A DNA stretch of 64,000 nucleotides from Dicyema japonicum. Its lineage: Eukaryota; Dicyemida; Rhombozoa; Dicyemidae. The position numbers and the translations under genes were made by a program. The stretch covers positions 184,838 through 248,837 of the forward strand of contig RDEW01000018.1 in the NCBI GenBank assembly GCA_011109175.1, written 5' to 3'. Positions 18,732-56,315 of the stretch are shown piece by piece. Below the pieces are notes generated by a model. That model searched no databases. It saw only the letters and a list, made by a program, of their open reading frames with translations, and was not told the DNA's origin. The stretch's first letter is position 1, and the number at the start of each line of letters is the position of its first letter.

Positions 18732-19960
18732 ATGGCGACCGACACACAAGACGAAAATGTTGATTTGGACAATTTGAACGGTTTTTTTATTTGGTTAATT
18801 TTAAGGTAACTTAGACTCTGAGGAATCGAAGGAGGACGAGGAAGAGGAGGAGCCTGAAGCAGAACCTGAGGCTGAAGAAGATGAAGAGGAGGTTTTACTG
18901 TAAACTTATTTGAAGGAGGACGCAGTTCCCCTCACTGCCTCCATTGTGGCGGAAGGTCTGTCCCTAGTTAGCAAGGTTTCTGATGGATTCGCTCACGCCT
19001 ATGTGCGACTGTCTCTGAAGGAGAGGTCTCTTCGGCTTAATTTGCAGGGAACTATCGAATATCGATGCCATCAAACAGTTTATTTACCTACGATATGTGG
19101 ATTTGTCGAATAATTACATTAAAAGTCTTCAGCCCTTGGAGAACTTGACTACCATTCTGGTGCTGAAGGTCGACAGTAACAAAATTCAAACTGTGGATCT
19201 ACCAGAAATGCGGTTCCTTCAGATTTTGAGTTTAAATAACAACAAATTGAAATCCCTTAACGGAATGAATTTCCCACTTTTGGAACAACTCAGCGTCAAC
19301 GGTTTTAATTTTTATTTTTTGATTAAATTAATAAAAAATTTTAATTTTTATAAATTATTTATAATTTAATAATAAATCATAGAAAATGACATCACTGACA
19401 TTTCCGGCCTTGATCCTGACGTTTTTTCGAACTTACACACTCTAGAGGTGCGGGGAACAAAATCAAGTCTACCAAAAGCCTAAACCTGCCGAATCTGAAG
19501 CACCTTTACTTAGTCTTTGTAAAATTTATGCTAGGCTGAAAACAAAATTACAGAGTTGGCAGGACTAAGCAACTTGACATCTCTCCAAACCCTCCATCTG
19601 AGGAACAACACGACTTTAAATAACCTCGATGGTCTCTCGGAGTCCAACACTTCCTTAAAAATTCTAAATTTAAGGTTTTATGGAATTTATGTTTTCCAGG
19701 TCTACTGAAATCTCCAATTTCGCGGAAATAGTAAAATTGGGGGCAATTCAGAGCTTAAACAAATTGAGTTTAGTAGGTTTGTATTCCTAAATATTGAAGA
19801 CACCCCGATTGCTAGTGAGGGAAATTACCGAGTGGAGGTGTTGTCATATATAAAGAGTCTCACTAAGCTGGACAAGGAAGAAATCACGGAGGAGGAGATC
19901 ACCGAAGCTCACGAAATCATTAGACAGAGATCTGAGGAGGATAATTCTATTGAAGTTTAA
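18732..19960 (+). CDS. LRRC23: Leucine-rich repeat-containing protein 23 (axonemal radial spoke protein)
   Basis: LRRC23 is a leucine-rich radial-spoke protein of motile cilia and flagella. Eight exons give 335 aa: an acidic Glu-rich N-terminus, then VAEGLSLVSKVSDGFAHAYV and LRYVDLSNNYIKSL, which are family hallmarks, then about eight LRRs (LSLNNNKLKSLNGM, LEVRGNKIKS, LAGLSNLTSLQTLHLRNN), and a C-terminal LTKLDKEEITEEE cap. Exons: 18732-18780, 18806-18891, 18916-19025, 19048-19301, 19383-19512, 19535-19674, 19700-19776, 19800-19960. The introns are 25, 24, 22, 81, 22, 25 and 23 nt; all are GT..AG and each restores the LRR frame. One base is missing in the GGGG at 19452-19455 (LEVRGN), the only break. 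Vertebrate orthologues are about 340 aa, so this is full length. A ciliary gene fits a ciliated animal. Confidence 0.93.
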
Positions 19961-20289
19961 TGATTTCACGTTCCTTTAGACGCCAAACGCTAAAGAATAG
20001 AATCGAATAACTCTGACTAATCTTAAATATTGATTTCTCATTTGAGTTCATTGAGTCACTTTTTTGCGTAAAATAACTCTTCAACTGTAACCACCATGGA
20101 TCGGCTTAATAGACCTCATATTACGGGAAAATGCCATGAAGACTTATGGGGGCGTTTAGTTTTAGTATTCCGTGGTCAGTGAGCAAAATCAGATGTTCAG
20201 TTTTATAAAATGGAAATCTCAGTGCAAAACAGTAGCTCTCCCAATATATGGGAATGGAATTTCAAGGGGTAGTTTCAGGTTGGCCTTAA
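19961..20289. other. Spacer downstream of LRRC23
   Basis: Probably holds the LRRC23 3' UTR (AATAAC and TAAATA stretches near 20005-20075). No coding signal. Confidence 0.4.
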
Positions 20290-20490
20290 AGTTCTACTAA
20301 TAATCAACACTATGTCTTCTCCACTTTGCCCACCATGCCTTTTTGATGTCCAGGATACGGGGCACCTCTTCTCTTGTCCGGGTTCTGAACAGAACCAAAT
20401 AAGCCTGTCAGATCTCTGGGATCGTCCGACTGTGAAGTTCTAGCTAGCCATCGATTTTTTTCACTCGAAGAAATCGGGGTAAATAAATAT
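20290..20490 (+). pseudogene. Non-LTR ORF2 C-terminal zinc motif
   Basis: The plus strand reads CPPCLFDVQDTGHLFSCP (about 20330-20385), the CxxC...H...C box near the end of Jockey-superfamily ORF2, then DLWDRP (about 20410-20430). The tail with CACTCGAAG and GGGGTAAA (20460-20480) recurs at 29329-29415, showing a shared 3' end. Confidence 0.65.
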
Positions 20491-20499
20491 ATTCATCAA

Positions 20500-20640
20500 T
20501 CAAAGGATCAACTTGATTTCACGCACGTCATGACTTCTGAGTGTGGGCAGAAGTCCCAGGCTATTGAGAAAAGACAGAGTTCTTCTTTACTCCTCAAGTT
20601 GTTTCGAGAGTAATCGCACGGAATGGGATTTCGTCGAGGA
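20500..20640 (-). pseudogene. RLE-type C-terminal fragment
   Basis: The minus-strand reading resembles the FLRILGCLTTFRSHEV segment at 31.0-31.2 kb and FLKKMRRLATFKNHDV at 37.05 kb. It is the same short piece of the RLE-family C-terminus, heavily decayed. Confidence 0.45.
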
Positions 20641-20809
20641 GTCTTTGTTATTTCTTTCCTTTAGCCTTCTCCGCATTTTCTGTTTCGGATAATGCCTTTA
20701 CTGTACTCCTAGTGATGTTAGTAGGAGATTGGGAGTTGATACAGGTGGTCATCCTAGTAACTTCTCCAACCTAAAATTATAGTTCCTTCCGGAGATTTTC
20801 GTTACATAG

Positions 20810-20915
20810 AAAAATTCTTCCATTGCATGGTGTTTGTTCACCCATCTGTAGAATATGTCCAAAAAGGCGCCAGCGGGCTTCAAGTACGTTTAGACTTGTT
20901 GGTGCACAATCAGTC
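20810..20915 (-). pseudogene. CR1/RTE-like C-terminal fragment
   Basis: This is the reverse complement of the sequence at 8768-8830: on the minus strand it encodes LEARWRLFGHIL. About 100 bp of near-match, truncated on both sides. Confidence 0.65.
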
Positions 20916-22136
20916 AGTCTGTATAATTAATTGTTTGAGATTTTCGTTGGCCAAGAGTATCCAAGGAGTTTTATTAGCTGGCCTCTGTGAAACAAGTCGA
21001 GTTGTTCCATGTCTTTCTTTGATGTTCCCAAAGTACCTGCGTTCCACATGAGGACAGGTCGACAAATCCATTACATAACCGCATCTTGTTTTTCGTCTTT
21101 CCTATAAAATTGTAATTTAAGACTAATATTCACTTTCTTAATCCTGTTTTAGCTGAGACTCGTATTTATCGACTTTGAAGGTTAAAATTACCAGGAACCC
21201 TGTTGAGTAACGCTGACATAATCTAATTTTCGTTGAAATAATAAAATAACTTTACGGGCTTACTGAGTTTCCTGAACTACTTTAATTCAAAACAAACATA
21301 AAAAAAACATAAAAATTATGTATTTATTATTGATTACATGAATTATCATAACAATGTAAAATTTACTCAAAATAATCAATTTTGTCTGAGGGCCAATTCT
21401 AACATAGAATGGCTATTTGAGTTTCCTGCAAAGTGGCATTTCAAAATTCGGTGGTACAATTCTAATGGTCTTTTCGGTCTTCTTTCTAATGAAAGGACTT
21501 GAGTGTCGGAAGTGCCATCAACAATTAAAAAATATCAATTTGCACTCGAAATAATTATTAATGCACTTTCATTACGCCATGGTCACGACAAAGCGTGTGC
21601 AACCTGGGAAACTAACAACAATGTTATCCCCCTCCACATGTTCCTCCTACCAGAAAGCTCCCAATGTGAGCATCTCCCTCTATGAAACGCCTCCTACTCT
21701 ATTGGAGATTCCCGTCCAAGACTATCGGTGTAATCATCCTTGGTCCTCACTGAATCGGGGAGCGTCTGAGAAGTCCCCCATGGCCACGTTAGCTGGGCTA
21801 TATTGTACCAAAAAAAGTCTTTTCAAATATATAATTTATGTTTGCATTAATTTTTAGTAAAATAAAGTACAAATTAATGCATTTTTTAAAAACAATAAAT
21901 TCATGTTTAATGCAGGTTTAACAAAACTAAATTATCAAAATAACTGCTTAATGATAGAGTAACGACTAATATTAACACTAATTTTATGATTCTTACTTAT
22001 TTAATTAATGGATTGATTACTTTTTAATTATAATGTAGGTCGCCATAGGTCAATAAATAAAGGATAAATTGTATGCTGTGGTACATTTTATCAATGAAAA
22101 CTAAAAAGGCTTATAGTCCCCATATTTGTCGCCTTA
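20916..22136. other. No firm gene; possible fragments
   Basis: 21503-21857 (+) holds two overlapping open frames without motifs. The opposite strand has a short stretch reading EEHVEGDNIVVSFPGCTRF (about 21640-21580) that looks protein-like but could not be extended with plausible introns. From 21800 the sequence is AT-rich. Confidence 0.35.
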
Positions 22137-22310
22137 TCCTCAGACAGGAACTCTTCTTAGGGGGACAACATATAAGCCTGTCAGTTTACAATTTGAGTTC
22201 CATCTTGCTCCGATCCAAGCGTACTTTGTAGTTTTGTCTTCAGACAGGAACTCTTCTTAGGAGACAACACATCTGCCCACCAGTTCCCGATTTGAGTTGC
22301 ATCTTGGTTT
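22137..22310. repeat. Diverged direct repeat of about 100 bp
   Basis: The block beginning CAGACAGGAACTCTTCTTAG occurs at about 22140 and again at about 22242. Both copies are followed by GACAACA and then by TTTGAGTT(C/G)CATCTTG. It lies 300 bp upstream of the protocadherin start, so a regulatory role is possible but untested. Confidence 0.75.
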
Positions 22311-22608
22311 GTAGACAGCTGAATTTTCGAGGATCAATTATTTCTAATAGATTTTAATTTATATGCAGAATTATTTCAACATTATAATAATTAAATTCAA
22401 TGTCAGAATAGCAATTAATTTGACGAAAGAAACAAAACTCTTAACTGGTAATCAATCCGAGTGATTAATTGGGTAAAATTCAAAGTGAAATGGCCCATTG
22501 TCATGCTGTCAAAATTGTTATCGGCGTCCAGCGCCTTGATACTTTAGAATACGCATTCCACTAACGTTTGCGTGCTTCTTATTAATTCTGTCTGCCGGAA
22601 ACAAACAA

Positions 22609-25295
22609 ATGTGGCTGAATTGTCTTCTGTTTTGGTCCGTCATTTTGGGAGGTTCTTTGAAATATTCGATCACTGAGGAAGTAGACGGCCAAGTTGTACT
22701 TGGGAATATTTATGAAGATCTCAATTTTGCAGATTATCAACTTAGCTCGGAGGAATTAACATATGGGATATTCATAAGTAGTATTTCTGGGGGATATTTC
22801 AAAATAAATCAAAACGGAAATCTGATTTCGACAGGAAAAATCGACCGTGAAGAGATATGTCCTCTAACAAAGCACGATTGCTTGATCTTCCTCAAAATTT
22901 TGATCGGTTTTCCAAGTGGGGAGACAAGCTTAGCAGACGTGGAGATCACAGTTATTGATATAAATGACAACAAACCTGTTTTTGATCCGTCCTCCGTTAC
23001 CATCGAGATCTCCGAGTTTCAACAGATCGCACGTTGATTCCAGTTACCTCGGCGTCGATAAAGACAGTGAAAATACGGAGTTGGAGACTACTCCGTTATA
23101 AGCAGGAGTCAAATTCCCTTTATTTTGCGGAATATAAATGGTGGAGATTCAAACCTATATCTGGAAGTAACAGAGAGCTCGATCGGGAGACCAGATCCCG
23201 TTTTACATTCGCAATCATCGCACGTGACAGAGAAAATAGACAAAAATATGGACTTCTGAACGTCACTGTTGACATTTTGGATGAAAATGACAATATCCCG
23301 ACCTTTACAAAGCAAATATTTTACTTCAATGTCTCTGAGTCCGTCCACGTGGGCACAATTGTTGGAGAAATTGAAGCAATTGATAAAGATGAGGGAGTCA
23401 ATGCAGTGATAGAGTATAATATCGATTCCGGCGTCAACCCGGAGGTCGAGAGATACTTCTTTTTGAACAAAACCTCTGGCAGCATTATGCTGAGGAAAAG
23501 CCTCGATTTTGAGAAAATGAATAATTTCCGGTTTCAAACGGTGGCCTACAATCCATCCAGAGCACTGTTCAAGGCCAAGGCAGAGGTTTCCATAAATGTC
23601 CTCGATTTTAACGACAACAGACCCATCATAACTTTAATCGGGGACCAAATTCTCTCAGTTATGGAAGATTCCCCAAAAGGAACAGGAATAGCCACCTTCT
23701 TCGTCTCAGATGCTGATTCCGGCAAAAATGGGGATGTTCAATGCAGAATTACGGATAATCGATTCCAACTAAACTACTTACAATCTGGAGGACTATTGCT
23801 GGTCAAAGCTGGCACTTTAGACCGGGAGATGAGTGACGAAATAGAAGTCTTGATGATTTGTGAGGACCAAGGTGTCCCATCCTTATACTCTTCAAAACAG
23901 TTATTCATCAAAGTTGAGGATGCGAACGACAATCCCCCACTTTTTGAAAAATCGTTCTACCTGTGCTATGTGATCGAGAATTCCGTGGTGCAAAATCCAA
24001 TAATACAACTTAAAGCCGACGATAAAGATATCGGAGAAAACGGCGAGATTCACTATTACCTTAAAAATGGACCGAATTTGGTTTTTCCGTGGATTCAACG
24101 TCGGGAAATGTATATCTCCACCAAAAACTCGACCGTGAGGTGCATGACGTCTATTACTTGCAAGCGGTCGCTATCGACTCTGGTAGACCGCACTTATTTT
24201 CATTTGCAACAATACAAGTTAGAATAATCGACACAAATGACGAAAAACCCACTTTTCCGCAGAAAATTTATTATTTTAATGTTTTAAAAAACACCAAAAT
24301 TAACACAAAATTGGCTCTGTTTTTGCCTATGACGCTGATTTGTCTCCCAAAACTGAATATTCTCTATCAGATTCGGATTATTTTCTTGTTGGGAAATCAA
24401 CGGGGGATGTTTATGTTAAACAATCTCTAAGGGAGTTACAAGTCTCATTTTTAAAAGCACACGTGACTGCCAAGGACGGAGAGAATCCAAATTTTAACGA
24501 CACGACGATGATTCTGGTCAACATTTTTGACGAAAATGTGCACCCCCCAATATTATTCCCAAATGATAATTTAAACCACTTCCAACTGAATTCAGCTACA
24601 AAAATTGGGCATTCCATATTCAGAGTGATAGCACGTGATACGTCTTTTGGACCTTTATTTTACAATCTCGACAATAGCGGCTATTTCACTGTGAATCAAA
24701 CTGGCTGGGTTCAAGTTTCGAGAAGACTTGATTTTATTGGTCAGCACGTGGTCACAGTAAACGTGTCTGACAGTGGGTATCCCCCACTTTATTCCCTAAT
24801 TAATGCCACAGTCGATGTGGTCCCCAGTTCTTCGGACATTTACTCGAACTCAATGAATATCGTCGCAGTCATCTTGTCAGTCGTTGTCGTTATAACATTC
24901 ATTCTTCTCTTCACGATTTGTAGGAAAAAAAGGGGGACTAAAAAAAATTCAATTTGACAAAATAACGGATTCACAGTTTTCATGTGCGATTATTTTAGAG
25001 AGCTCCGAATGGCAGGAATGGTTTTGAAAAGTTCCACAAAAGCAAGGAACACTTCGAAATTTTGCCGCTGAAAAAGTCCCCTATTAAAAACGGTAACATT
25101 AAAGTGCAGGATTTATCGACCATTGCTTATTCAAGTTACATGGGTCTAAAGTACTATCTTGTCAATAATTACCATATGCTCTCGAATAATTCTTAAATAT
25201 TATCTTTAATGTTTTTAGACTTGGAAATGAAAGCCGATTATATCTTTGACTCAAATATGAACCCACAAGGACTGCTCAAGTCTGTAATCGTCTGA
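22609..25295 (+). CDS. Protocadherin-like cadherin-superfamily adhesion receptor (frame breaks present)
   Basis: A type I membrane adhesion protein by family. ATG at 22609 opens a signal peptide (MWLNCLLFWSVILGG). Six cadherin calcium-site linkers follow in order: DINDNKPVF, DENDNIPTF, DFNDNRPII, DANDNPPLF, DTNDEKPTF and DENVHPPILF, then a last partial repeat, a TM helix (about 24855-24920) and a basic CRKKRG stop-transfer. The ectodomain is one long exon, as in protocadherins. The tail uses introns at 24976-24998 (23 nt) and 25144-25218 (75 nt) and ends LLKSVIV, a possible PDZ ligand. One-base breaks occur near 23030, 23060, 23099, 23180, 24085 and 24310, and one more is likely in the A/G run at 24925-24945. 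Between breaks the sequence is strongly conserved, so this is either a recent pseudogene or an error-containing stretch. It is too short for FAT or Dachsous. Confidence 0.85.
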
Positions 25296-25374
25296 CTGCT
25301 GTTTAAACATTAAATTATATTAATAAAGATAATATTAGTTTTAATGTTTTAAATGCTACTTAAAATGATTTAAT

Positions 25375-25560
25375 TTGGCCACGTGGTGCTATGTGGCTAG
25401 TATGTCAAAAATTATTTTCCCTCCCTTTGATGGCGTCATTGGATCCACCCTACTGAGGAGACGCCCAATGCCTGGCCGGCATCAAGAGGATTCATTATTC
25501 TTTCTCTCAGAAACAATGTCGTTACCTGGAGACAAGTTCTGGAACCCTGGAACGAGTTAG
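25375..25560 (+). repeat. SINE copy
   Basis: The head CCACGTGGTGCTATGTGGCT and the core GGCGTCATTGGATCCACC...CGCCCAATGCCTGGCCGGCA align with the 40.2-kb copy. The 3' part is diverged. Confidence 0.7.
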
Positions 25561-25794
25561 GATCAAGGAGTAAGTTAGTTTGGTTACCCTTGGTCTTTTG
25601 AATAATTTTTATTAATTTAATCATCAATCCGAATCTTTGGAAGCGAAAGCGATGCGCCCACTCAATGGTCACCATACAGTCCGACTTCCCAGAGGTCGTT
25701 AAACAGGTTGACAGGGGAGTAATCGTGGTTCTTTTAGTTGCTAGATTGAAACTGGTATCCAATTTTCTCCACGTGAAGGTGAACTAATAGACCA
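25561..25794. other. Unassigned spacer
   Basis: A 108-codon minus-strand frame spans 25436-25762 but overlaps the SINE and shows no motif, so it is treated as chance. Confidence 0.4.
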
Positions 25795-26045
25795 ATCAGG
25801 TTCCTCTCTTCCGAGGGACATCTGGGTAAACCTGGCTCGTCAACGATGTGGGCAACACCCCCTTTTTACCGACGTAAGATGTCCTCTGTTTTTTTGCAAC
25901 CTCTACGAGTTGACATTTATTTGAATGCACATAATGTTAGTATACAATGCCAGGACTGACCGATGTATGAGAGACACCGGCATTTGCTGCGTCCTACTTA
26001 ATAGCTGCTGGCCTCCTACAAGTTAGTGAGGCCGGGGTTACTTAA
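25795..26045 (+). repeat. Dispersed repeat, copy 1 (retrotransposon C-terminal remnant)
   Basis: About 250 bp aligned with 45305-45545. Shared blocks include GGGTAAA near the start and ATTTGCTGCGTCCTA plus CTCCTACAAGTTAGTGAGGC near the end. The partner copy encodes VNHLQCGHYSFLPIYV, which resembles the RLRCGH..L..Y segment of non-LTR ORF2 tails. Confidence 0.6.
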
Positions 26046-31781: not shown

Positions 31782-33185
31782 TCAATTATTTCCTAAATTT
31801 TTATCAAAATCCGAGATCTCCCTTTGAACTTTATTAAAGAAATATCGTCCCACAGCCTCTGGAATCCAATCCTGGTAGTAAAACTCTGAGTGCCGTTCAT
31901 TTTCCACATTCCTCTCAGAACCAGAGACAACCTACAACACCCTTATCCGCTACCTCAAAATCCTTAGACTGGGAGGACAACCACTTGAACATAAATTTAA
32001 CTGGATTCTCAGAAAATTCCTTGAAAAACTCATAATTGATCCTCGAAAGACTGATCTCTTCTATTAGATTGTGGATCTATGACTCAAACCTACGTTATAC
32101 AGTGTCATCATATTCCTCCAACTGTCTCTGAAAGTCCCCAGTCATCAGGAAAGTCTTCCTTCTCTCGACGTCCTCGGAGTTCTAGAATGATCGACCACAC
32201 AAACAATTTCCACGGGAATATCGAAATAAGAGCGATTCACAGGAGTTCGGAGATCAGTCCTACAACAACCACCAAAATCCAACTTTACTACAAAGTTGAG
32301 GACAAATGGGTCCGGTGGAGTCAGCAATTTCTGAACACGACTGGAAAGCTCGTCAAATGGCATTCTTTTGACTCCAAAGACCTACAGGGAGTCAAAGGAC
32401 TACAACTTTGCGAAACCCAGCATCACAGTTGATGTGGTACCGGTCTGAATGATCTTGAAGTTTGTTGGTTTTGATGTACTGCCACAAAGCTGCGATTATC
32501 ACTGTGCGCGTGCTGGGAGAAAAAATTCCTATTAGGTTGGCGAGTCTTCTCTCAGGTTTGAATTTAGGCGGCTAAAAAATTTAGTTTGACGTGGCAACCT
32601 CGTTGTTGAGAGAAATGTAGATTTTACAGGCTACATCACAGTTTCCTGGCCGACTAATCTGAAATCCTGCAGTTTCTTCACAATTTTGAACTCTGTTCCA
32701 TTCAAAGAGGTGGTTTTCTGGACCATATTGCTCTCGGTCTAGCTCCACGACCAAACTCTTTATAAAATTCGACATTTTTAATTTATTTGGAACCTCTTGG
32801 GTTATATTTTTAACCTAAATCTTTAATTCGCAAAAGAAAACGTCCACTAATTGACCTTCAATCTTCAAAACCCAGCTGGGGATGGAAACTTCCCCATACT
32901 CTCTCGAATTCATCGCCGGCGTGAAAATTGAGGTCAAAAATACTCGCAAAGTGGAATTTTTCCAAATAAAATTACAAATTACTGTATTGGTCCTCTTTAC
33001 AGCTTCGCTTATTTCGAGTTTTTTCCGTTTTATAAGCCTTTCCAATTTCCTCTCCAATTGAAGAGATTTGTAGAACGAATCTCTGCATTCCATCATCTCC
33101 ATTATATGCTGCGGGAGAATATTTTCGTTTAGACGATTTTGATGCCTGTTTATGAAAATTAGCTCTGTTACTTTTCAGAGTACAT
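31782..33185 (-). CDS. SMARCD: SWI/SNF chromatin-remodelling subunit SMARCD/BAF60
   Basis: BAF60 links the SWI/SNF remodeller to transcription factors and is nuclear. Eight exons from ATG 33185 to TGA 31782 give 410 aa with no frame break: 33185-33172, 33145-32842, 32814-32599, 32571-32404, 32381-32205, 32181-32101, 32076-31954, 31931-31782. The seven introns are 26, 27, 27, 22, 23, 24 and 22 nt. Family marks in order: LERKLERLIKRKKLEISEAV, RVFLTSIFTPA, NFIKSLVVELDREQYGPENH, the SWIB domain (RTVIIAALWQYIKTNKLQD, MPFDELSSRVQKLLTPPDPF), FKWLSSQSKDFE and the C-terminal FYYQDWIPEAVGRYFFNKVQ. Animal BAF60 proteins are about 470-530 aa; the difference is a much shorter N-terminus. The D1/D2/D3 paralogy of vertebrates does not apply, so only the general symbol is used. 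Confidence 0.95.
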
Positions 33186-35556: not shown

Positions 35557-36190
35557 ATGGACATAAGCTACAAAGTTGATAAGTCTGTGGAAAATAAGAG
35601 AATGTATACTTGCTATGGCAGTGTATATGCAAACTCTAGTGACTCCGTAACCACCAGACTCTCTCTAATTTGTGGATTAAACAAGGATATGGAAGATCAG
35701 GAGTTCAGAGATTCAATCACCATATACAAACAAAGTAACACAAAACCTTATCCCAGAGCTCCCTACAGGTGAGGAACAAAGTCTCACAGTGCGCAGAACC
35801 ACGGAAGCCAAGGATGGCCAATGGTTAGACGCATCAACTTACTCAAAGCTACCTAATATACTACGGAATGGTTGACTCTGATCAGAAAACACCGCTAATA
35901 ATGACCCGAACATTCGTTCAGTGCTCTGCGGATCACCGAATTGGCAAATTTTTGGAAGAAATTGGATTTGAGTATAACTTTTGGTGAGAAGCAGAGTTTC
36001 AAACGATTTTATTACCGAGGGACAAATTTTCCGTCACGGAAACGTGAAAATCACTTTGTACAGGATAACACCGTCAAAGGGTCAGTTTGTGGCCGCCTTC
36101 AACGATTCATTAGTCTTAGAGATGTGCCTGATATCCAATGGGCAGGTTTATGGTTCAATAATCATTAGGATAACCCCCACGGACAATTGA
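35557..36190 (+). CDS. MED18: Mediator complex subunit 18
   Basis: MED18 is a head-module subunit of Mediator and acts with MED20 in RNA polymerase II transcription. Four exons give 187 aa with no frame break: 35557-35734, 35757-35823, 35849-35971, 35995-36190; the introns are 22, 25 and 23 nt. The joined frame shows the family order: CYGSVYANSSDSVTTRLSLI near the N-terminus (human CYGSV..HSLESL-like), SLTVRRTTEAKDGQ, YLIYYGMVD, KFLEEIGFEVSNDFITEGQI, then RHGNVKITLYRITP and SLVLEMCLIS. Without the third intron the strand between FEV and SNDF is lost. Human MED18 is 208 aa, so this is near full length. ATG 35557 is chosen because the upstream frame has no better start; an extra 5' exon is possible. 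Confidence 0.93.
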
Positions 36191-40758: not shown

Positions 40759-41273
40759 GGGCGATTTTTATTTTGACTTTATAAATCGGAAATTTTGACC
40801 TAAAAATTGACTTTATGATAAATTTATCTACAAAAAAATTTTTTTAATATAAAAAAAACTAATCAAATCTTTATTAAATAGGAATATGTTGTTTTTCCCA
40901 CTTTTGTGATAGAAAGCACTTGATTGACTATTAATCTTGATTCCAGTACTTCCCGATACCACATAAATCGTCCCCGAAATGCAATTTCTGAATGTGTTCA
41001 AAGGCGTCTTCACGATCTATCGCAAAATTATCTGAACGATAACCAAAGAGTTATATTTTTTTAACAACAGACTTAATCTTTTCAATGTCATTCTTGATTG
41101 AACGCGGCATCACATTGAATGATGATAATTGATCCCACGCTAGTATTTTATTTAAAAACTCTAAAAATTAAACAATAAAAATTAAAAATCAATAAAATTT
41201 TTGACTTTATTGACTTTTTTTGACTTTATAACTTTTGATTTATATAATATTTTTGATTAAAAACTACATTTTA

Positions 41274-41459
41274 CAGGGTTTTCCTATTTATTTAATAACT
41301 TTGTCATAAAATTTAATAACTTTGTCAAAATATTCAATAACTTTGTCATAAAATTTAATAACTTTGTCAAAAAATTTAATAATTTTGTCAAAATGTTTAA
41401 TAATTCGTCAAAATACTTAATAACTTTGTCAAAATTTTTAATAACTTTGTAAAATATTT
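41274..41459. repeat. Left TIR of the mariner, tandem AATAACTTTGTCA units
   Basis: About eight units of TTTAATAACTTTGTCAAAA and variants, with TCATAAAA or TCAAAATA linkers alternating. The mirror image is at 42806-42987. Confidence 0.85.
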
Positions 41460-41690
41460 ATGGGATTATTATTTATATTTTTGGGATTACTATTTATATT
41501 TATTAGATCATTATTTATATTTATTGGATCATTATTTATATTTATTAGATCATTATTTATATTTATTAGATCATTATTTATATTTATTAGATCATTATTT
41601 ATATTTGATCATTATTTATATTTATTGATCATTATTTATAGATTATTATTTATTGGATTATTAAGTTCCTATAAATACAAATTTTAGCGC
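41460..41690. repeat. 24-bp AT-rich tandem repeat inside the mariner
   Basis: Repeats of GATCATTATTTATATTTATT and variants fill the space between the left TIR and the transposase. The open frame across it (a LFIFIRS repeat) is a by-product of the 24-bp period and not a protein. Confidence 0.8.
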
Positions 41691-41702: not shown

Positions 41703-42753
41703 ATGAATAGTTACAAAAACAAAAATACTACTGTATCCGAGGATAACCGAAAACTTATTATAAATAAATATGAAGCAGGGTTGGCTTATTCAAAAATAAG
41801 CGAAGACATCTGTATTAACTATCAGACAGTTGTTTCTATCGTCAAAAAATACAAAAATACAGGAAGTTTTGCTTCAACAAAAAATAATTGTGGACGAAAA
41901 AAAAACTTAATTCATCGGACATCTTATTTTTGACTAAAAAAATTGAAGAAGATGCTTCATTTACTCTAAAGAATTTAAAAAATTCTTTATTTTGATGTGC
42001 AAAGAAAAAATGTCTCTCTATCGACAATAAATAGGACGCTAGATACATTTGGATATAGTTTTAAAAAGATTCAATTTGTACCTATGGCGAGAAATTCTAC
42101 AATAAATATGGAAGAAAGATATAGATTTGCCAGAAAAATAATTGAAATTGATAATCAACGGCTTATTTTTATAGACGAAATGGGTGTCAATTATTCGATG
42201 AGATCCAAATTTGGAAGATCTATAAAAGAAGTTACTCCGAAAAAATGTATTAGAAACATAGGAGAGAAAAATTTTTCTATTTGTGCTGCTATTTCTGTGG
42301 ACGGCCTTTTACATTACGAAATCAATTCCTCCCCTTATCGCGCAGAGACGTTCATTGATTTTGTAATACAGCTTAATTATAAGCTTGAACATGCAGGGAA
42401 AAAAAGTATGGTTATATATTATATTCAAGACATGGTATTGATATGTGACAATGCATCAATTCACAAGAGCGAGCAATTAAAAAATGTTGTATTCGGAACT
42501 AAAATCCAATTAATTTTTAACGTGTATAGGGTATGAATTGTATTTTTTGCCTCCTTATACTCTTCAACTCAATCCAATTGAAGAGTTTTTTTCTGTTTGG
42601 AAAAATAACATCAAAAAGAAAAATTGTAGGAACTCTGAGGAATTAATAAACGCAATCCAAAACATCGGAGAAATTCCATCAGATGTGTGCAATAATTTGT
42701 ATAGCCACATGCGGAGCTATTTAGTTAAAGCATTGGCTTATGAAGAATTTTAA
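41703..42753 (+). pseudogene. Tc1/mariner-type transposase with frame breaks
   Basis: The N-terminal helix-turn-helix begins at 41703 (SEDNRKLIINKYEAGLAYSK, then INYQTVVSIVKKY). After a frame break at about 41930-41995 the catalytic part reads LIFIDEMGVNYSMRS (first Asp), LICDNASIHKSEQL (second Asp), and after another break at about 42525 YFLPPYTLQLNPIEEFFSVW (Glu). All three DDE residues are present. Spacing between the second Asp and the Glu is about 45 residues when the break is bridged, longer than the 34 usual for Tc1/mariner. Total length would be about 340 aa. Recently dead, or broken by sequence errors. Confidence 0.85.
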
Positions 42754-47590: not shown

Positions 47591-47689
47591 CGAATGGTTG
47601 ACAACGCCACTCGCTTTTCTGCATCAATATTTTTTAAATTTCGTATTTCATATTATGCAGCAAAGAAAAATTAATTTTAAGGATCGATT

Positions 47690-48100: not shown

Positions 48101-48289
48101 AGTTATAAAATCGAAAAGTCAAATTTTATTAAAATTATTTTTTAGGTCAATAAAGTCAATTTTTTTATTTTCGGCGACTTCCTATGAAATTGACAATAAT
48201 TTGCTTTAACATAAAAAAACTTTTATTGAGTCGTTTATTTACGAAATATTATTCAATAAAAATTAAAGAAAAGAGAGTAAACGATATAG

Positions 48290-48480
48290 CGGCTTCCTGA
48301 CTGCGTGGCTATTCCCTCTCAGGATAGCGAGCGAGATTCGCTCAAATACCCAGCAGCGCTCATGAGGGTCTCCTGTTCGTGTAGCGATCCGATTCCCTAG
48401 ACGACTCAAGAATTCCAGCGTCGCAGGCGCAAGGGAATAAGACGTCTCAACGGCGAGTGGAATATATCAAACGAATATGA
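48290..48480 (-). pseudogene. RLE-type retrotransposon 3' tail
   Basis: Nucleotide match to 43940-44100: CTGCGTGGCTATTCCCTCTC, GCGAGCGAGATTCGCTCAAA and CATGAGG...GATCCGATT are shared. Only the last 60 or so codons remain. Confidence 0.7.
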
Positions 48481-48731
48481 AAGACATCTCTATTATTGTC
48501 ATATCAATATTCTCAAAGCATGCTGTTTCGTTCATGCTGAGTGATGGTTTCCCGAAGCCATTGATTTGACTCAAATGGGCAGGAGTGACCTCATTAAAGA
48601 ACTTAGTTCGATAAAATAATATAATGTCGTACTAATTATCACAAATAAAGACAAATTAATAAACTATATTATTTAGGTCCTCTGACCCCTTTCCACGGAA
48701 CGACGATACCTAAACGCTAAAGATCATGAAT

Positions 48732-50131
48732 TTACATTAATGTGAAAGAAACGGAAAGTAAAAGACTTGCTATAACGAAAAATATGAGACCCGGGAAAGT
48801 CGTTAAGGTTGATCTGTACACTTGGAGACCAAGTGTATTCCCTAAGACACCGGATAAACTCTGAAGTACCAAAATAACAGAGAAAAGTCTCCCTAAAATT
48901 TAAAATCAGGCAGAACCTTTTTCATCCGGATCCACAAGCTTGCCAGCATTGACATAAAAATGGGTGCGGGGATCGACCGGAAGGACAGAAAAAACATGGC
49001 TAATGAATATTAAAAAATCCTCACCAATGTAAATCATAATCTTATTTTTAGCGAATCCTGTAAAATAAGCCCAATTGAGTTAGAAAGAGTCAATATAATA
49101 CCGAAGAAAATATCACTGAGTCGGCGTCTCCCTGAATTGTTTTCCTTGAGAAGAAACTGGGAGCTCAAAATCCCAATAATCAGTCCTACGCTTGCTATGG
49201 ACACGACTATCCATATTCCTTATTCGACATCAAAAATGGGTCGGAGAGAAAATATAGGTAGGTCACGGAGGAATAAGCTACAATAAGTCGAAGGATTACA
49301 GGTGTATGTAACATAGGAAAGGAAGAAGCATAGCAGGTATAGTAAAAAAGGTTACGAGAATCTCTCTTTTTAAAAATAACCCCAAAAAGTTGTCTAAACA
49401 CGTTTAAATAAGAAAAAACGTAAAAATATTGCATTTTGGTTTGCTTTCTGGTATTCTCCAACAGAAGAAGATTTAGAAATATCAGGGATCAGAAACAAGC
49501 CGTAATAAGAGGAGGCAATGTATAACATAAGAGATATCAAAAAAGCCATATCCAGTTGTTTTAAATCAGCTAAATAACCCCCGTTGTTAGTAATTAAAAC
49601 TGTTAATAATATGACGACTTCTGCTATGACAAGACGACTGGATAAACGCTCGGGATTCACGGTGACACTTATGTAACTGAAACTCGTCTGATAGAGAACA
49701 ACCACACTCACTAAACAAAAGGAAACAATGGTAGACAAGTATATCGTCCAGAAATCGAAATTAAATCTGACAATGAACATCAAAAATAGACATCCGGACG
49801 AGGATCCAATAAGTGGGAAACACAGGGACCGTTTATATCGCCCTTTGTCGATTTGGACTCCTGAGAGAAATATGGCAATAATGGGAATGACAACCATGAG
49901 AGTACTGTTAATGGTTATAACATTATCTGAGAGTTTTTGAACGTTAAGGCGTTTGCTTTTCTGAATGGAAGTATTTGTCCTCTTGGATTGTAAAAAATCG
50001 CATTCCTTGTATAAATTATTACAGGATTTTTGATAAATCAATGCTTTTCTTGAAAATCCCTATAAGTTTGCAGCCAAAATGACCAAAAAAATTGGTTCAA
50101 TGTATGTAATTTTATCGAATATATAGGCCAT
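48732..50131 (-). CDS. SLC46-like major facilitator transporter (frame breaks in the 3' half)
   Basis: A multi-pass plasma-membrane or lysosomal transporter by family (SLC46 includes the proton-coupled folate transporter). ATG 50131 starts MAYIFDKITYIEPIFL; intron 50060-50083 (24 nt); exon 2 50059-49420; intron 49394-49419 (26 nt); exon 3 to 48917; intron 48893-48916 (24 nt); last exon 48892-48732. YIEPIF near the start, the Cys-containing first loop (CNNLYKECDF), IDKGRYKRSLCFPLIGS after TM2, SSYYGLFLIPDI at the end of TM6, and VDPDEKGRLFSVIL before TM11 are family marks. Exons 1-2 are clean; exon 3 needs about four one-base changes (near 49310, 49205, 49045-48985, 48940). It is adjacent to a SINE insertion 5 bp upstream of the ATG. 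Confidence 0.8.
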
Positions 50132-50134
50132 AGC

Positions 50135-50290
50135 AAATGATCCTTTTTCGTACCGGCCTGGCACTGGGCGCCACCTAGACAGTTGGATCACATGACGTCA
50201 CTCTAATAGGAAGAGAGAGGAGGAACAGACAAGCAAGCAGAAATCTTTAACCAATTAACCACGCAGCACCACATGGCGCCACGCGGCATT
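50135..50290 (-). repeat. SINE copy
   Basis: On the minus strand: CATGTGGTGCTGCGTGGTTA, the pyrimidine linker, TATTAGAGTGACGTCATGTG, TGGCGCCCAGTGCCAGGCCG and AAAAAGGATCATTTGCT. It lies between the SLC46 start and the truncated gene at 50297. Confidence 0.75.
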
Positions 50291-50296
50291 CCACAG

Positions 50297-50590
50297 ATCA
50301 CACTCTCCCATGAACCCACTACCCTCCTCATTAATTTTATTTTTAATTCGATTTTATACGATACTGAAAAAAATGTTGCGTGGCTCACCTACGATGTTGT
50401 GGCATTGCACAATTTATGTGAAAAAGATCCGCAAAATCCCTATCCCTTTCTCATTGAGACGTGGATGGTGTCGTGCATTACGATACTGACCCTAAGCTGC
50501 ATTAGGTGGTACATGGCTGGATTTCCGCGAGGTTACATCCTAGAAAAGTACCCCAATTATGCTCATGCTACAAATAACAGTTTGCTTTAA
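50297..50590 (+). pseudogene. 5'-truncated membrane-protein remnant beside a SINE
   Basis: An open frame of about 95 codons runs from the SINE edge to TAA at 50590. It contains KNVAWLTYDVVALHNLCEKD, a hydrophobic segment (MVSCITILTLSC), then IRWYMAGFPRGYILEKYPN. The composition is protein-like and unlike retrotransposon frames. There is no in-frame ATG outside the SINE except within the membrane segment, so the 5' end is either cut off by the SINE or lies in an unseen exon. Family not recognised. Confidence 0.4.
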
Positions 50591-50689
50591 TCTTTATCTT
50601 ATTTTTTTAATTGTTAAATTTATGGGGTCATGTAATTAATTATTGGAAATTGATTTATTTTGTGGGGAATCAAGACTATTCGCCAGGGT

Positions 50690-50935
50690 CCCTTCATTTC
50701 CTGGACAAATTCCTTGAAGATTTGAGCTAACCAAAAAGGGGCTTCTAAAATTACGGAACGATGGAATTCTTGAATGTTCTAGTGTCCAATTCCTCTGGAA
50801 TCCTTAATACGAGCAACGTGCTGTTGCGACTACGGGGATCCTATTATACGGCCGATACTGGCTTGTGTGGGCTCAAGGAAGGAGTATTAAGCCAAGTAAA
50901 GGTCTCTGTTGGAGTACGCTGGGACCACGTTTATT
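50690..50935 (+). pseudogene. Retrotransposon 3' end, copy 1 of a pair
   Basis: Aligns with 63260-63475: ATTCCTTGAAGAT..GAGC, AAATTACGGAACG(A/C)TGGA and CTTGTGTGGGCTCAAGGAAG are shared. In the other copy this encodes the GSREEHRAK-type tail; here it is diverged. Confidence 0.6.
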
Positions 50936-50949
50936 TATTTAACCCAAGA

Positions 50950-51800
50950 ACACCAATAGTTAATTTAATTGGACCTTCCGAGATCCAACACAGCTTCTCT
51001 GAGGACGGGAGGGTTTTGAAAGAAATACAAGAGGGGTGATGTAAAGTCTTCTAGTAAAACCCAATCCATTAGAGCATTGTAGGAAGTTGGATTTTCGACA
51101 CAGAGCGGCGAATCCTTTCCCATTTTGTCCGATAAGGTCTTCCAGAGAGGTGGGTGTGAGACTGACTGTTCTCACGAGCTTGCCGATAGTTGTAGCTGAT
51201 AGGGACTGAATATCACTGATTTTCTGTTTGTTCGTCCAGGATAGGTTGATTCCCCAAGACGCACAGGCGTAGCTTATAGATGGCTCAATGAATTGCTTAT
51301 GTAGTAGTTTCAATGCTGGGAAAGGGATTCTGATGCCACCAAAAATAGATTTGATCAAACCAAGCTTTCTTGAGCAGGTTCCGGAGATATATTCGACATG
51401 AGGGGAGAAGGTCATGTGCGTGTCAAAGGCGACTCCTAAGATTTTCAATTTCTTCGTAAAAGGTATTTTAGTTTGGTTGATAAATAAATCAACGGTCATT
51501 CTTCCAAGACGTTTGTCTGAGGTAAATAGGGATGTGGAGGACTTCTCAGGAGATATATCAAGTCTGTTGGAGATTAACCAATTTTGAATCACGTTTAGTT
51601 GTTTTTGAACTCTTTCTGAGGCTTTTAGGAGATCCTGGTCACGGGATCCAATTAGAATGTCATCAGCATAGGAGAGGATAAGATCGTCTTTATCAACTGA
51701 TCGTGGCAAATCGGACATAAAATGGTTGAATAAGGCGGGGACAAAGGAGAGCCTTGCGGAACACCATTAAGAAGTAGTCTCGAAAGTGATTTGGTCCCAT
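50950..51800 (-). pseudogene. Jockey/I-like reverse transcriptase, 3' half
   Basis: A continuous 253-codon minus frame (51718-50960) preceded by NGVPQGSPLSP in another frame (51770-51740). It has LILSYADDILIGSRDQDLL (active site), CNVIQNW-like helix, RLDISPEKSSTSLFTS, LKILGVAFDTHMTFSPHVE, and a thumb with FIEPSISYACASWGINLS. Nothing upstream of block 5 is present: the copy is truncated at 51800. It is among the better-preserved RTs in the window. Confidence 0.85.
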
Positions 51801-52762
51801 CCATACATACCCGGCGTTATTGTTATTTTTGAATTTTTATTTCAATATAAAAAAACATTTTTTGAAATTCTTTTTATTTTTTACCAAATTCTGTTAAAGG
51901 GAAATTGCAATTTTGAGTCAATTAAGTCGCGTGGCGCAATGTGGTGCTGCGAACGAAAATTCCTGTGGTACAATCAGTCATCCAGTAACCTAATGTAAGT
52001 TTTACTCATTTTTTATCCAAACCCGAAAAAAGAACAAGAACGAAGTATCAAAGTAACTAATTAAGTGATCCTGATATTACAAAGTAGGCACGCGAGATCT
52101 ATTTGATATCTCTCCATAGTTCACATTCTCCCATGTACCCACTACCCTTCTCTTTCAGCAGTTTTGAAAGAGTTTAGAGTTCATTTTTATATTTTCAGGA
52201 TTTGGCGTCTTCTATCGTTGAACAAAACAAGGAATCAGATTCTTCGCTGAACTAGAGAAGAATAGTGATGCAAACACTTCACAGATCTCTATGCAAATTA
52301 AATCATCCGAATAAGTTTGACATTATTAATCTCGGATATCATATTTCCCGGGTAAAGTTTCTCGGAATCCGATTAGAAACAGTCCCCAAGCACAGAATAT
52401 TTGTCCAACTTCATTTGTTCGGCAGAATCAGCAGAACAATCTGAGGTTATATTAGGTATTATATTTATCAGGGAAAATGTATCTAATTATTAGTTTGTCG
52501 GAAGGTTGAGATGGTGACGTAACCCTAAAGCACTATGGGAAAGTTTTTGTGAATTTAATATCCTCATCTTCTCAAGATGAATATTAGCCCCTCATCCTTC
52601 TTAATGGATTCTGAAGACGTCGGAAACATAGTTTTTAAAATAAAGATCAACAAATGCCCTTATATCTATGTTAGAATTTCGTATGGCTCAAATAGGGGAA
52701 ACCTTCTTTGAGGAAGAACGCTTCCACAGATCTCTGATGTTAATTGTGGTCCCTTGAAGAAG
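51801..52762. other. Degenerate sequence
   Basis: 51925-51985 contains a SINE-head-like stretch (CGCGTGGCGCAATGTGGTGC). The rest shows no motif. Confidence 0.4.
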
Positions 52763-52938
52763 AAGAAAGCTTCTTGTGGAATCAATGATAATTGGTCAGG
52801 TGGTGGAAGCCAAGAGCCCGACTCGTCTCTAAGTAGGAAGTGGCCAGAACGTACTAGGGTCCTTTTTGGTTCTCTCGAGAGTAGTCTCCGAGTTATCCAC
52901 CAATGGGTGAGGGCGATCCAGCAGGTCGTTCAAACCAG
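52763..52938. repeat. Left member of a 175-bp near-identical duplication
   Basis: Begins AGAAAGCTTCTTGTGGAATC and ends CAGCAGGTCGTTCAAACCAG. It recurs at 54490-54664 with only two or three mismatches. The second copy starts immediately after the N at 54489. Confidence 0.85.
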
Positions 52939-53084
52939 AATCGTTGTTAAAGGACCCCCCAAACCAAACCAAACCAAATTTATTCCAAAGTAAGTAAGTA
53001 AGGAGTTATTTTTAGGATATTTAAACGTGTCCGCCTATGCAACCTGGACACTTCCGATGTATCCACACTCCATTTAGTTATCTT

Positions 53085-54360
53085 CTATCGTCGGATCCCA
53101 TTGATTCTTTTCTCTACGATGTTCTTAACAGGAGTTAAAATCATGTCTTCTTTAGTACTGAGAGCATCCCAGAGCCTTTTCCCTAAAGCCAGCTTTATTG
53201 CCGACCTTCTGGTTTTTTCCATGAGAAACATTATTCTTTCTCTTTGGCAAGAGAAAAACCATGCTTCGCATCCATATAGCAGTTCCGGTAGGATGATCCT
53301 CATGAAGATGAACAAGAAGGTTTCCAGGCTTACAAACAACTTTCTCGTACATAAGAGTGCTTGAAGCGCCTTCTTCTTCTTCGTCTTATGTCCTCGATGA
53401 AGGAACCATTCCATCGATTGCTATCCCGAAGTAGAGCATTGAGTTTACTTTAGGAATCTCTAATGAGTAAGGCTGCTTCTGATGCCTCCTTAGGCGACTT
53501 ACTCGTAAAGAGCTGGATTTCTCCGTAGACAATCTCATCCCTCTTTTTGTGCACCAGTCCTGAACTTGTCCAATGAATGACATGATTCTTTTTTCCGAAA
53601 TAGTTGATTCGCCAGATGTATCTGTGATCAGAATATCATCGGCGTATATCAATAGTCTTGTGTTTATATCCGGTGGAGTTGGAAAATCTGATAGGAATAT
53701 GTTGAATAGCAGAGGGCTCAGGACGGAACCCTGAGGAACTCCCCTCTTTAGTATGATGTCTTTTGACATATGTGCTCCAACACGTACTTGGGAAATCCGT
53801 CCTGTTAGGAAATCCCTTATCCATATGAGAATTTTCTTTTGTATCTGAGCTGCTGCTAGCCTTGATAGGAGTGCTTCGTGCCACACACTATCAAAAGCCT
53901 TGGACAGATCCAAACATACCAGGTTGACTAGTCTTTTGACTTCCAGACCTCTCAATACCGTTGAATGCATCTGGTAGATACAGTCCGTGCATGATTTTCC
54001 AGGTCTGAAACCCCATTGTTCTGCGAGGAGGAAACCACTTTCTTCTATGTTGTCGTTAAGCCTTCTGAAGATAATTCGTTCGATCATCTTGGAGATCAAA
54101 CAGATGAGGCTTATTGGCCTATAGCTGAGAGAGTCCCTCCTCGATTTTCCCGGTTTCAGTATCATTCTGACAATGGAAGATTTCCAGCGTTTTGGGACAT
54201 GACCATGATGAATGCTTGCATTGAATAAATTCTTCAGTATGGGAAATAGAGCCTCTGGGGCTTCCTTGAACAATCTCATGCTTAGATGGTCAAGTCCAGG
54301 AGCGTTAGCCTTGCATTTCATGATTGCAGTCATGACTTCTTCCGTAGTTATTTTCATTTT
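53085..54360 (-). pseudogene. Best-preserved non-LTR reverse transcriptase
   Basis: A 323-codon minus frame (54357-53386) plus its continuation (53414-53085) in a second frame. RT blocks: CKANAPGLDHLSMRLFKEAP, SIVRMILKPGKSRRDSLSYR, LAEQWGFRPGKSCTDCI, VCLDLSKAFDSVWHEAL, LKRGVPQGSVLSPLLFNIF, LLIYADDILITDTSGES and RLSTEKSSSLRVSRLR, then a thumb with ILPELLYGCEAWFFSCQRER. All catalytic Asp residues are present. The N-terminal endonuclease is absent upstream: the sequence is cut by the N at 54489. One frame break near 53400. The copies at 13.4 and 14.6 kb belong to the same family. Confidence 0.9.
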
Positions 54361-54488
54361 GTATCTTTAAGATCGTCCAAACAGTAGGTTAAAATTTCAC
54401 GTGAAGAATCTAACGTCTCCCTCGGAATAAGCTCCATCGGGTTGACCCCCTGAATCGGTCCAGTTGTTTCTTAAAAATATCTGGGGCT

Positions 54489-54489
54489 N
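54489..54489. other. Single-N assembly join
   Basis: The N separates the RT upstream region from a second copy of the 52763-52938 sequence, suggesting an unresolved contig end and not a true single unknown base. Confidence 0.7.
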
Positions 54490-54664
54490 AGAAAGCTTCT
54501 TGTGGAATCAATGATAATTGGTCCGGTGGTGGAAGCCAAGAGCCCGACTCGTCTCTAAGTAGGAAGTGGCCAGAACGTACTAGGGTCCTCTTTGGTTCTC
54601 TCGAGAGTAGTCTCCGAGTTATCCACCAATGGGTGAGGGCGATCCAGCAGGTCGTTCAAACCAG
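54490..54664. repeat. Right member of the 175-bp duplication
   Basis: Near-identical to 52763-52938, in the same orientation. Together the two copies flank the RT fragment. Confidence 0.85.
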
Positions 54665-54689
54665 TCTTCCGATTCCTTTGGTAGATATG

Positions 54690-55190
54690 TGGTCATCTAT
54701 TGTCTTTGACTTGGTTTTTTTGGGGGTAGATGATGAATTTATACCAGTTCACGAGACAGGAGCGTTATGGTCAAATTACCTTTCTGTTGTACTTCACGTG
54801 AGTCAGGAAGTAGCAGGGTGGTCTGGTTCCGTGATTTTATTTAAGAATTGGAGGTTCTTTATGCAGAGGTGATCTTCCAATGGGAGATGGTGGTTTCTTA
54901 GTGAAGGTGGGCAGCAATAATTGTTTGAAGAGCTCCATTTTAGACTCTTCGAAGTTTTGGATGTTGCAGGCTGGAAGGGATGAGTCCCAGGAAAGGGTCG
55001 CGTAGTTCAAGGTGGTCCTGATATATTTTTTGTAGATTATTCTGTGGGTTTCCTTGTCCTGGTCAAAGATGGATCAGGCAACTGCGCGGAGGGCGTTCTT
55101 TTCCTTACTACTGTCATTCCATAAGGGACCAGGTAGTTTGGCGGTTGTAGTGTTTTTCGAGACAAGCTGCAGATTCAAATTCCATAAAGT
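54690..55190 (-). pseudogene. Retrotransposon RT thumb/C-terminal fragment
   Basis: The minus strand reads NTTTAKLPGPLWNDSSKEKN, SIFDQDKETHRIIYKKYI, RTTLNYATLSWDSSLPACN and ESKMELFKQLL. The YKKYI..TLNYA..SW segment corresponds to YKQFIRPTMTYASPSW of the 58.8-kb copy. Confidence 0.65.
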
Positions 55191-55342
55191 GAACATGACA
55201 CCGGGATTTAATTTAAGTTATTAAACGGGATCACTTTTTTCTTTTATTTTTTTGAGTTAAATAAATATTTTATTTTTAAATTTGAATATTTTGGATCCTT
55301 GTGGGTTCGTAAGGCTAAGGCATAATTTATTAATAAATTTAG

Positions 55343-56315
55343 ATGGGAAACTTTGATTCTAACAAGAACAGAGATAAGGTGCTGGATTCTAAGCTAAAAC
55401 GAAAAATGTCAGATAAAGTAGAAGAAATAGAAAACAAATTTGAGATCCATTACGACCAGCTGGAGAACAAAATCAAGAACGAAACCATCGGTCCTCGATT
55501 TATTTATTTAAGGATTGGTTACCTTTGATGAAATGGCTATGCATCAAAACGAAGCGCTGAATTCCCTCAACAAGGCAACCCCAGTCGTCAATAACACCAA
55601 AAAGACTGTCAAAATCACTTGCAAAGTATTTGAATTTAAATATCAGAAATCGCTGCTTTCTTTTGATCTTGAAGAGGATGGCGACGTAGACTGTGCTCCT
55701 CCCAAACGACAAAGTAACACGTGGGTGGACACTTAGGGAAGAATCCGACCGTGGATACGAGCTTTCTCCCAGACATCGAACGGGAAGAAGTTGAGAAGAA
55801 ACTTAGGTACTACGATTATTAAGTCTTAGGGCGTCTCTGGTTGATGAATGGAAGGAGATGCAGGAAAACACCAAGAATGAACCATTGGAGATCGAGTTCA
55901 GCTTCTGGGACGGGTCAGGACACAACCAGCAGGTACCCACGCGATTTAATTTCAGATTCAAGTAAAGAAGGGGACCTCAGTGCACGAGTTCTTGCAGAAG
56001 GCACTCGAGGATCTCCGCGAGGAGTTCATAGAACTGAAATCGACAACGTGCGATCAGTTGATGTTTGTGAGGGATGATGTGATCGTGCCATTCTACTACA
56101 CATTCTATGATTTGATAGTGGCGAAGGCTTATGGACGGTCGGGACTGTTATTTGGGTTGCTATAGTGATTATATGGAAGACAGTCGAGTGAACTGGTATC
56201 GGAGGATATGTCAAAGGTCTGTACGAGGGATTGGTATGATAAGAACAGACATATTTACCCGGCTGATCGGTGGGAGGCTTATGATCCTTTAAGGCACAGG
56301 AATCCGAATGAGTGA
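55343..56315 (+). CDS. FAM50: FAM50/XAP5 family nuclear protein
   Basis: FAM50/XAP5 proteins are conserved nuclear proteins linked to splicing and chromatin. Six exons give 285 aa with no frame break: 55343-55490, 55513-55713, 55737-55806, 55830-55932, 55956-56155, 56180-56315. The introns are 22, 23, 23, 23 and 24 nt. Family blocks in order: [103 protein letters not shown] and the C-terminal [20 protein letters not shown]. The human proteins are about 325-340 aa; the missing part is the charged N-terminal coiled coil, here reduced to some 50 residues. ATG 55343 follows a long AT-rich stretch and is the only in-frame start. It is flanked by retrotransposon debris on both sides. Confidence 0.95.

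Follow-up and report, generated by a model that had tools for sequence, protein, structure and literature searches.

Probable spliceosomal micro-introns of 20 to 27 nucleotides in Prp8 and other genes of Dicyema japonicum

Protein-coding genes in a 64,000-nucleotide (nt) stretch of the Dicyema japonicum assembly GCA_011109175.1 (contig RDEW01000018.1, here C77, positions 184,838 to 248,837; the window) appear to be interrupted by GT..AG segments of only 22 to 27 nt, which raises the question of whether such segments are introns and, if so, by what signals a spliceosome could recognize them. The assembly comprises 64.7 Mb in 191 contigs, and the GC content of the window is 38%. The segments are very probably the tiny introns earlier described in dicyemid parasites, a kind of thing already known from these animals and not new, and alignment to homologous proteins points with high confidence to U2-type spliceosomal introns shrunk to 20 to 27 nt in a dicyemid or a very close relative.

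Because the window genes have diverged from their references, the gene for Prp8, which lies outside the window on another contig of the same assembly (C87, stretch L021), was taken as a control. It was aligned to human Prp8 in two parts, of 499 and 941 reference residues, with introns of 12 to 120 nt allowed, and its exons share 400 of 482 and 847 of 934 residues with the human protein. The alignment contains 22 GT-AG introns, one of which (20 nt, coding-like, and at a one-base frame offset) was discarded as an artefact; the 21 others are all 20 to 26 nt long, though the much wider range was permitted. A gene finder trained partly on these introns models Prp8 as one gene of ∼2270 amino acids with 36 introns including the artefact, leaving 35 of 20 to 26 nt (mean, 23.2 nt), among which all 21 homology-placed introns recur identically.

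The GT-AG borders of Prp8 also emerge when no borders are imposed. In a boundary-free test, any boundary dinucleotides and lengths of 15 to 90 nt were accepted in five aligned segments of four genes (Prp8, LRRC23, SMARCD, and MED18); a 44th gap, in SMARCD, was left out, being too near the end of the reference. GT-AG is among the near-best placements in 24 of the 43 gaps, including 19 of 21 in Prp8, and the next pair, its one-base neighbour GG-TA, in 10. With GT-AG enforced first, the chosen placement ranks first for local homology in 21 of 34 cases (15/22 in Prp8, counting the artefact, 3/6 in SMARCD, and 3/6 in LRRC23). Divergence of the window genes from their references rules out a proof of this boundary-free kind for them, and the decisive evidence is therefore that from Prp8; the window introns are taken to follow it by their shared length class and by frame restoration.

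Four of the nine window genes for which the initial annotation had claimed such introns (SMARCD, MED18, LRRC23, and FAM50) were rebuilt by spliced alignment to homologues with solved structures, namely, SMARCD1 (6lth), LRRC23 (9fqr), human FAM50A (8c6j), and the MED18 of PDB. One aligner was weighted, requiring GT-AG, allowing 15 to 100 nt, and mildly preferring lengths of 20 to 30 nt, a TAG end, and an AG on the exon side of the donor; a second, run without site weights, was used for SMARCD, LRRC23, and MED18. Alignment to the solved homologues yields 15 introns of 22 to 27 nt (mean, 23.7 nt), together with one of 81 nt, in FAM50, SMARCD, and LRRC23. These 15 form the window set in the comparisons that follow, with all MED18 introns and the 20-nt and 81-nt segments of LRRC23 left out.

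The claims made for individual genes fare unequally. Each of three junctions that had been named for checking, at 31932-31953 (minus strand), 35735-35756 (plus strand), and 55491-55512 (plus strand), is a 22-nt GT..AG segment at those coordinates, and the series of lengths given for FAM50 (22/23/23/23/24) is reproduced by the alignment to human FAM50A, with the spliced protein matching Pfam XAP5 at 2.1e-37. For SMARCD, whose spliced protein matches Pfam SWIB at 7e-19, five annotated lengths (27/27/23/24/22) agree with the SMARCD1 alignment (27/27/25/23/24/22), but an annotated 22-nt intron is replaced by one of 25 nt that has the same acceptor, a donor 3 nt further in giving the 22-nt form; the annotated first intron (26 nt) falls outside the SMARCD1-aligned part. 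Homology alone leaves the last SMARCD intron undecided between 31932-31953 and 31914-31935, because the unweighted aligner picked the latter. MED18 had been assigned introns of 22/25/23 nt, of which only the 23-nt one is stable across both aligners, and the 22-nt one is not recovered by the alignment to PDB MED18; that alignment is weak (3e-4), giving 80 and 23 nt in the weighted version and 13 (doubtful), 25, and 23 nt in the unweighted one. Spliced at all three, the MED18 protein matches Pfam Med18 at 6.8e-11, and the match spans the three junctions.

In LRRC23 the lengths 22/81/22/25/23 agree, including the 81-nt exception, which is placed by spliced alignment, and the gene-finder model of this gene also holds a 25-nt intron. 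Restoration of the frame had been called exact, but here it is not, a one-base offset near 19448-19470 disappearing only if one accepts a doubtful 20-nt intron, which the weighted aligner proposed and the initial annotation did not list. Frame restoration thus serves as evidence in FAM50, SMARCD, and LRRC23, which aligned well, with that qualification for LRRC23. The reading of the segments as spliceosomal micro-introns like those of dicyemids is supported in these three genes by the restored frames, the GT-AG borders, and the tight range of lengths, and far more strongly in Prp8. One-base offsets occur both at LRRC23 19448-19470 and in Prp8 (L021 minus strand, near base 5088), in genes that are otherwise conserved, and may reflect indels in the assembly, allelic differences, or recent mutation.

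Base composition marks the Prp8 introns to an unusual degree. The intron interior is 95.2% A+T in the 35 Prp8 introns (96.5% in the 21 homology-placed ones) and 66.1% in the 15 window introns (63 to 72% by gene in SMARCD, LRRC23, and FAM50), so that introns of nearly pure A+T in one gene and of almost ordinary composition in others seem to coexist in a single animal; local composition, expression, or intron age may account for the contrast. Decoys, defined as GT..AG spans of 20 to 27 nt, outnumber real introns 4.0 to 1 in Prp8 and 6.3 to 1 in the three genes of the window set. By A+T content, the 35 Prp8 introns are separated from 139 decoys with an area under the curve (AUC) of 0.992, and the homology-placed introns from 89 decoys with an AUC of 0.994, rising to 1.0 when the comparison is limited to the 77 decoys lying clear of every intron. 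T content distinguishes window introns from decoys with an AUC of 0.793, and the match to U1 over all nine positions does so with AUCs of 0.67 in the window and 0.794 in Prp8.

The 5′ site consists of little beyond GT and its exonic flank. Positions +3 to +6 in the 50 introns carry −0.04 to 0.10 bits each relative to the intron interior (∼0 in Prp8 and 0.06 to 0.36 in the window, per position) and 0.25 to 0.64 bits relative to uniform composition (0.46 to 0.82 in Prp8 and 0.03 to 0.35 in the window). Pairing of U1 with an AAGT at these positions is not seen: 3 of 50 introns have G at +5, and the U1 match over +3 to +6 does not set introns above decoys in the window (AUC, 0.519) and does so weakly in Prp8 (AUC, 0.683). 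On the exon side, A occupies −2 in 33/50 introns, compared with 110/303 exonic GT sites in Prp8, and G occupies −1 in 29/50, compared with 63/303. As for the branch point, the motif CTNA is not enriched, occurring in 1 of 35 Prp8 introns (2.6 in shuffles) and 3 of 15 window introns (3.9 in shuffles). The best match to TACTAAC shows a faint excess in Prp8 (4.40, versus 4.21 when shuffled; standard deviation [sd], 0.09) and none in the window introns (3.80 versus 3.89; sd, 0.18), and no branch motif appears among the enriched 4- and 5-mers of the pooled gene-finder introns.

The small nuclear RNA (snRNA) genes that were read give no sign of a matching departure. The best of 11 listed U1 loci, the one that was read, begins ACUUACCUGG / UUCACUUACCUGG and has conserved loops, although its score of 69.0 falls slightly short of the 69.5 set as the gathering score; of 25 U2 hits, the 8 that were read all contain GUAGUA, and ACAGAGA is present in 9 of 10 U6 loci. 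We take the U1 5′ end, the U2 GUAGUA, and the U6 ACAGAGA to be the recognition boxes, and at these the U1, U2, and U6 copies as read are canonical, although +3 to +6 of the introns carry almost no information. RED and the SF1 helix-hairpin domain are each represented by one partial exon match. Single-gene candidates were also found for U12 (contig C68:163471-163599, L052; 85.4 bits), in which the stretch AUGAGUAAGGAAAAU, presumably acting in branch recognition, matches the model, and for U6atac (contig C34:237761-237858; 37 bits, against a gathering score of 33). These candidates suggest that a minor spliceosome is kept alongside the micro-introns; no title on a dicyemid minor spliceosome is present among the literature matches listed.

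Other explanations of the segments fare poorly when set against these data. If they were frame shifts, pseudogenes, or products of chance, the commonness of GT..AG spans would let frames be patched anywhere, and the 6.3-fold and 4.0-fold surplus of decoys and the two one-base offsets are of the kind expected; such an origin is nevertheless the least probable of those considered, since GT-AG recurs in Prp8 without being imposed, the 21 homology-placed lengths stay within 20 to 26 nt when 12 to 120 nt is open to them, and the Prp8 exons between these introns are close to the human protein. It is also very improbable that the segments are DNA eliminated from the somatic genome, comparable to the internal eliminated sequences of ciliates, with the assembly representing the germ-line version. 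Dicyemids do undergo developmental DNA elimination, and the segments are short, regular in size, and A+T-rich in Prp8; on the other hand, TA-bounded excision as in ciliates would leave TA repeats, and the segments fit GT-AG in 19/21 boundary-free Prp8 gaps, prefer an exonic AG ahead of them, and share the genome with U1, U2, and U6. A published comparison of Dicyema cDNA with genomic DNA likewise reports introns of similar size (PMC2222250).

Removal of part of the introns by the minor (U12) spliceosome is scarcely credible either. The U12 and U6atac candidates speak for it, but none of the Prp8/gene-finder or window introns listed begins with RTATCC. Genome-wide, the pair RTATCCTT..TTCCTTRAY occurs 3 times at gaps of 0 to 12 nt, versus 2 for the reversed control, and 14 times versus 6 at gaps of 13 to 43 nt, where there is an excess. 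Given how seldom this canonical U12-type pair occurs in the genome, the micro-introns were not taken to be of U12 type.

Removal by the major spliceosome is the preferred reading, and from the GT-AG borders, the narrow lengths, the snRNA boxes, and a 5′ site made up of GT and a preference for exonic AG, we infer that an ordinary major spliceosome would remove the micro-introns via intron definition. The unit recognized would be a ∼23-nt A/U-rich span running from the GT after exonic AG to the next UAG; U1 would pair chiefly with the exon end and GU, any A in a suitable place could serve as the branch point, and B-complex factors such as RED-SMU1 may ease the crowding, with the distance from 5′ site to branch point far under the ∼50 nt of human extracts. 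The fuller proposal is tentative, and we regard it as possible rather than probable: the spliceosome would read these introns chiefly as a measured span of this kind, with U1 pairing on the exon side, no branch sequence, and canonical snRNA boxes, while in other genes, such as those of the window, the A/U cue would be nearly gone and a further signal would act, the minor spliceosome being retained alongside.

Several observations weigh against this account. Fourteen of the 35 Prp8 introns come from the gene finder only, which was trained on such introns, and few gaps in the window genes support GT-AG in the boundary-free test (3/6 in LRRC23, 2/11 in SMARCD, and 0/5 in MED18). A+T content separates the 15 window introns from 95 decoys poorly (AUC, 0.686), and composition and length therefore cannot be the whole code there; the recognition model is our own construction from the sequence, and the window genes are not fully explained by it. 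In both LRRC23 and Prp8 the frame can be kept only by accepting either an offset of one base or a doubtful intron of 20 nt, and of the RED-SMU1 pair, RED alone was looked for and matched. Finally, the published D. japonicum genome (67.5 Mb; GC content, 36.7%) is reported to have a mean intron of 38.2 bp, longer than those described here, although long introns raise a mean (PMC6736024).

Gene finding without homology was of limited use. Codon bias is weak, and an ab initio finder trained on HSP70 accordingly recovered next to nothing; homology was therefore needed. After retraining with the introns of Prp8, it recovered that gene in full and largely missed the window genes, and its other models were therefore unused as evidence; its last training set of 81 introns includes four of 43 to 58 nt and two of 19 nt, some of which stem from a false gene model within the repeats of 41051-41605. 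A forced-open reading that allowed introns of up to 100 nt produced spurious long introns.

Table 1. Introns placed in four genes of the window (coordinates counted from the first base of the window)
Gene	Length (nt)	Position	Strand	Basis and remarks
LRRC23	25	18781..18805	+	Forced-open codon model only, outside the PDB alignment; agrees with the initial annotation
LRRC23	22	19026..19047	+	Spliced alignment to LRRC23 (9fqr), both aligners
LRRC23	81	19302..19382	+	Both aligners; long exception, 97% A+T inside
LRRC23	22	19513..19534	+	Both aligners
LRRC23	25	19675..19699	+	Both aligners
LRRC23	23	19777..19799	+	Both aligners
SMARCD	27	32815..32841	-	Spliced alignment to SMARCD1 (6lth), both aligners
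SMARCD	27	32572..32598	-	Both aligners
SMARCD	25 (or 22, inner donor)	32382..32406	-	Both aligners; homology prefers 25
SMARCD	23	32182..32204	-	Weighted aligner; 32 nt from the same donor in the unweighted one
SMARCD	24	32077..32100	-	Both aligners
SMARCD	22	31932..31953	-	Weighted aligner; 31914-31935, also 22 nt, in the unweighted one
MED18	22	35735..35756	+	Segment read; Pfam Med18 match of the spliced protein; absent from PDB MED18 alignments
MED18	25	35824..35848	+	Unweighted aligner; inside the 80-nt gap of the weighted one; Pfam Med18 match
MED18	23	35972..35994	+	Both aligners
FAM50	22	55491..55512	+	Spliced alignment to FAM50A (8c6j), weighted aligner
FAM50	23	55714..55736	+	Weighted aligner
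FAM50	23	55807..55829	+	Weighted aligner
FAM50	23	55933..55955	+	Weighted aligner
FAM50	24	56156..56179	+	Weighted aligner

The remainder of the window holds a cadherin-repeat gene with long exons at 22540-25000 (plus strand), most like CELSR/Flamingo (7e-89 to CELSR1 in PDB), and frames resembling those of mobile elements. Open reverse-transcriptase frames (Pfam RVT_1) resembling long interspersed nuclear elements (LINEs) lie at 53389-54366 and 58787-60001, both on the minus strand, and similar-looking fragments recur elsewhere in the window; a Tc1/mariner-like transposase (DDE_3) at 41703-42750 (plus strand) has A+T-rich repeats on either side that look like inverted copies. Near-identical duplicated stretches are present at 52712-52929 and 54413-54655, and also at 56740-57000. 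The window contains three Ns, and an N (translated as X) adjoins a duplicate near 54.5 kb and near 56.9 kb, as if these duplicates marked contig joins.

Introns this small were already in print for dicyemids, reportedly with weak 5′ sites and no branch-point signature, and the surprise implied by the initial annotation is correspondingly smaller. Aruga et al. (2007) compared cDNA and genomic DNA of Dicyema acuticephalum and reported 16 introns with a mean of 26.2 nt (PMC2222250); a set of 41 introns from the same species is described as having a median of 25 nt, a mean of 24.93 nt, an AT content of 69.9%, no branch signature, and a 5′ boundary that, at 0.5 bits, is weaker than any other known (PMC2483917). 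A median intron length of 27 bp is given for Dicyema sp., against 57 bp for an orthonectid (PMC6543705). The introns described here share the length class, the very weak 5′ site, and the reported lack of a branch signature, and at an average of 23 to 24 nt are slightly shorter than the published means of 25 to 26 and median of 27. The A+T content of the window introns (66.1%) is close to the published value of ∼70%, whereas the Prp8 introns (95%) are richer. The size of the genome (64.7 Mb here and 67.5 Mb as published for D. japonicum) likewise comes near that of dicyemids, and an independent origin of these micro-introns in some other animal lineage is improbable.

Similar reductions are reported outside the animals. 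Paramecium introns (25 nt in P. tetraurelia and 23 to 26 nt in P. bursaria) are of similar length and low in GC and, as here, keep the exonic −2/−1 consensus and have lost +3 to +6 (PMC12862383). In P. bursaria the same source ties that loss and the exonic retention to loss of LUC7L with LUC7L3 retained; LUC7-family genes are candidate factors for a 5′ site moved toward the exon. Paramecium is a ciliate, and its introns are of independent origin; the U11/U12 small nuclear ribonucleoprotein is reported missing in the ciliates examined there, in contrast to the U12 and U6atac candidates found here (PMC12862383). The ∼19-nt introns of the Bigelowiella natans nucleomorph are likewise extremely shortened, with degenerate signals, but belong to an algal nucleomorph and are shorter than those described here (PMC2483917).

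What these genes add is a larger intron set, facts about the snRNAs, and the contrast between the A+T-pure introns of Prp8 and the compositionally ordinary ones of the window. Human splicing in extract is reported to require a separation of ∼50 nt from 5′ site to branch site, with Smu1 and RED easing short distances (Keiper et al., 2019; PMC6692369), and an entire micro-intron is about half that length. An animal with canonical snRNA boxes and minor snRNA candidates would be a test bed for how little sequence an intron needs, and the same animal would serve as one for the proposed shift of U1 recognition to the exon side.

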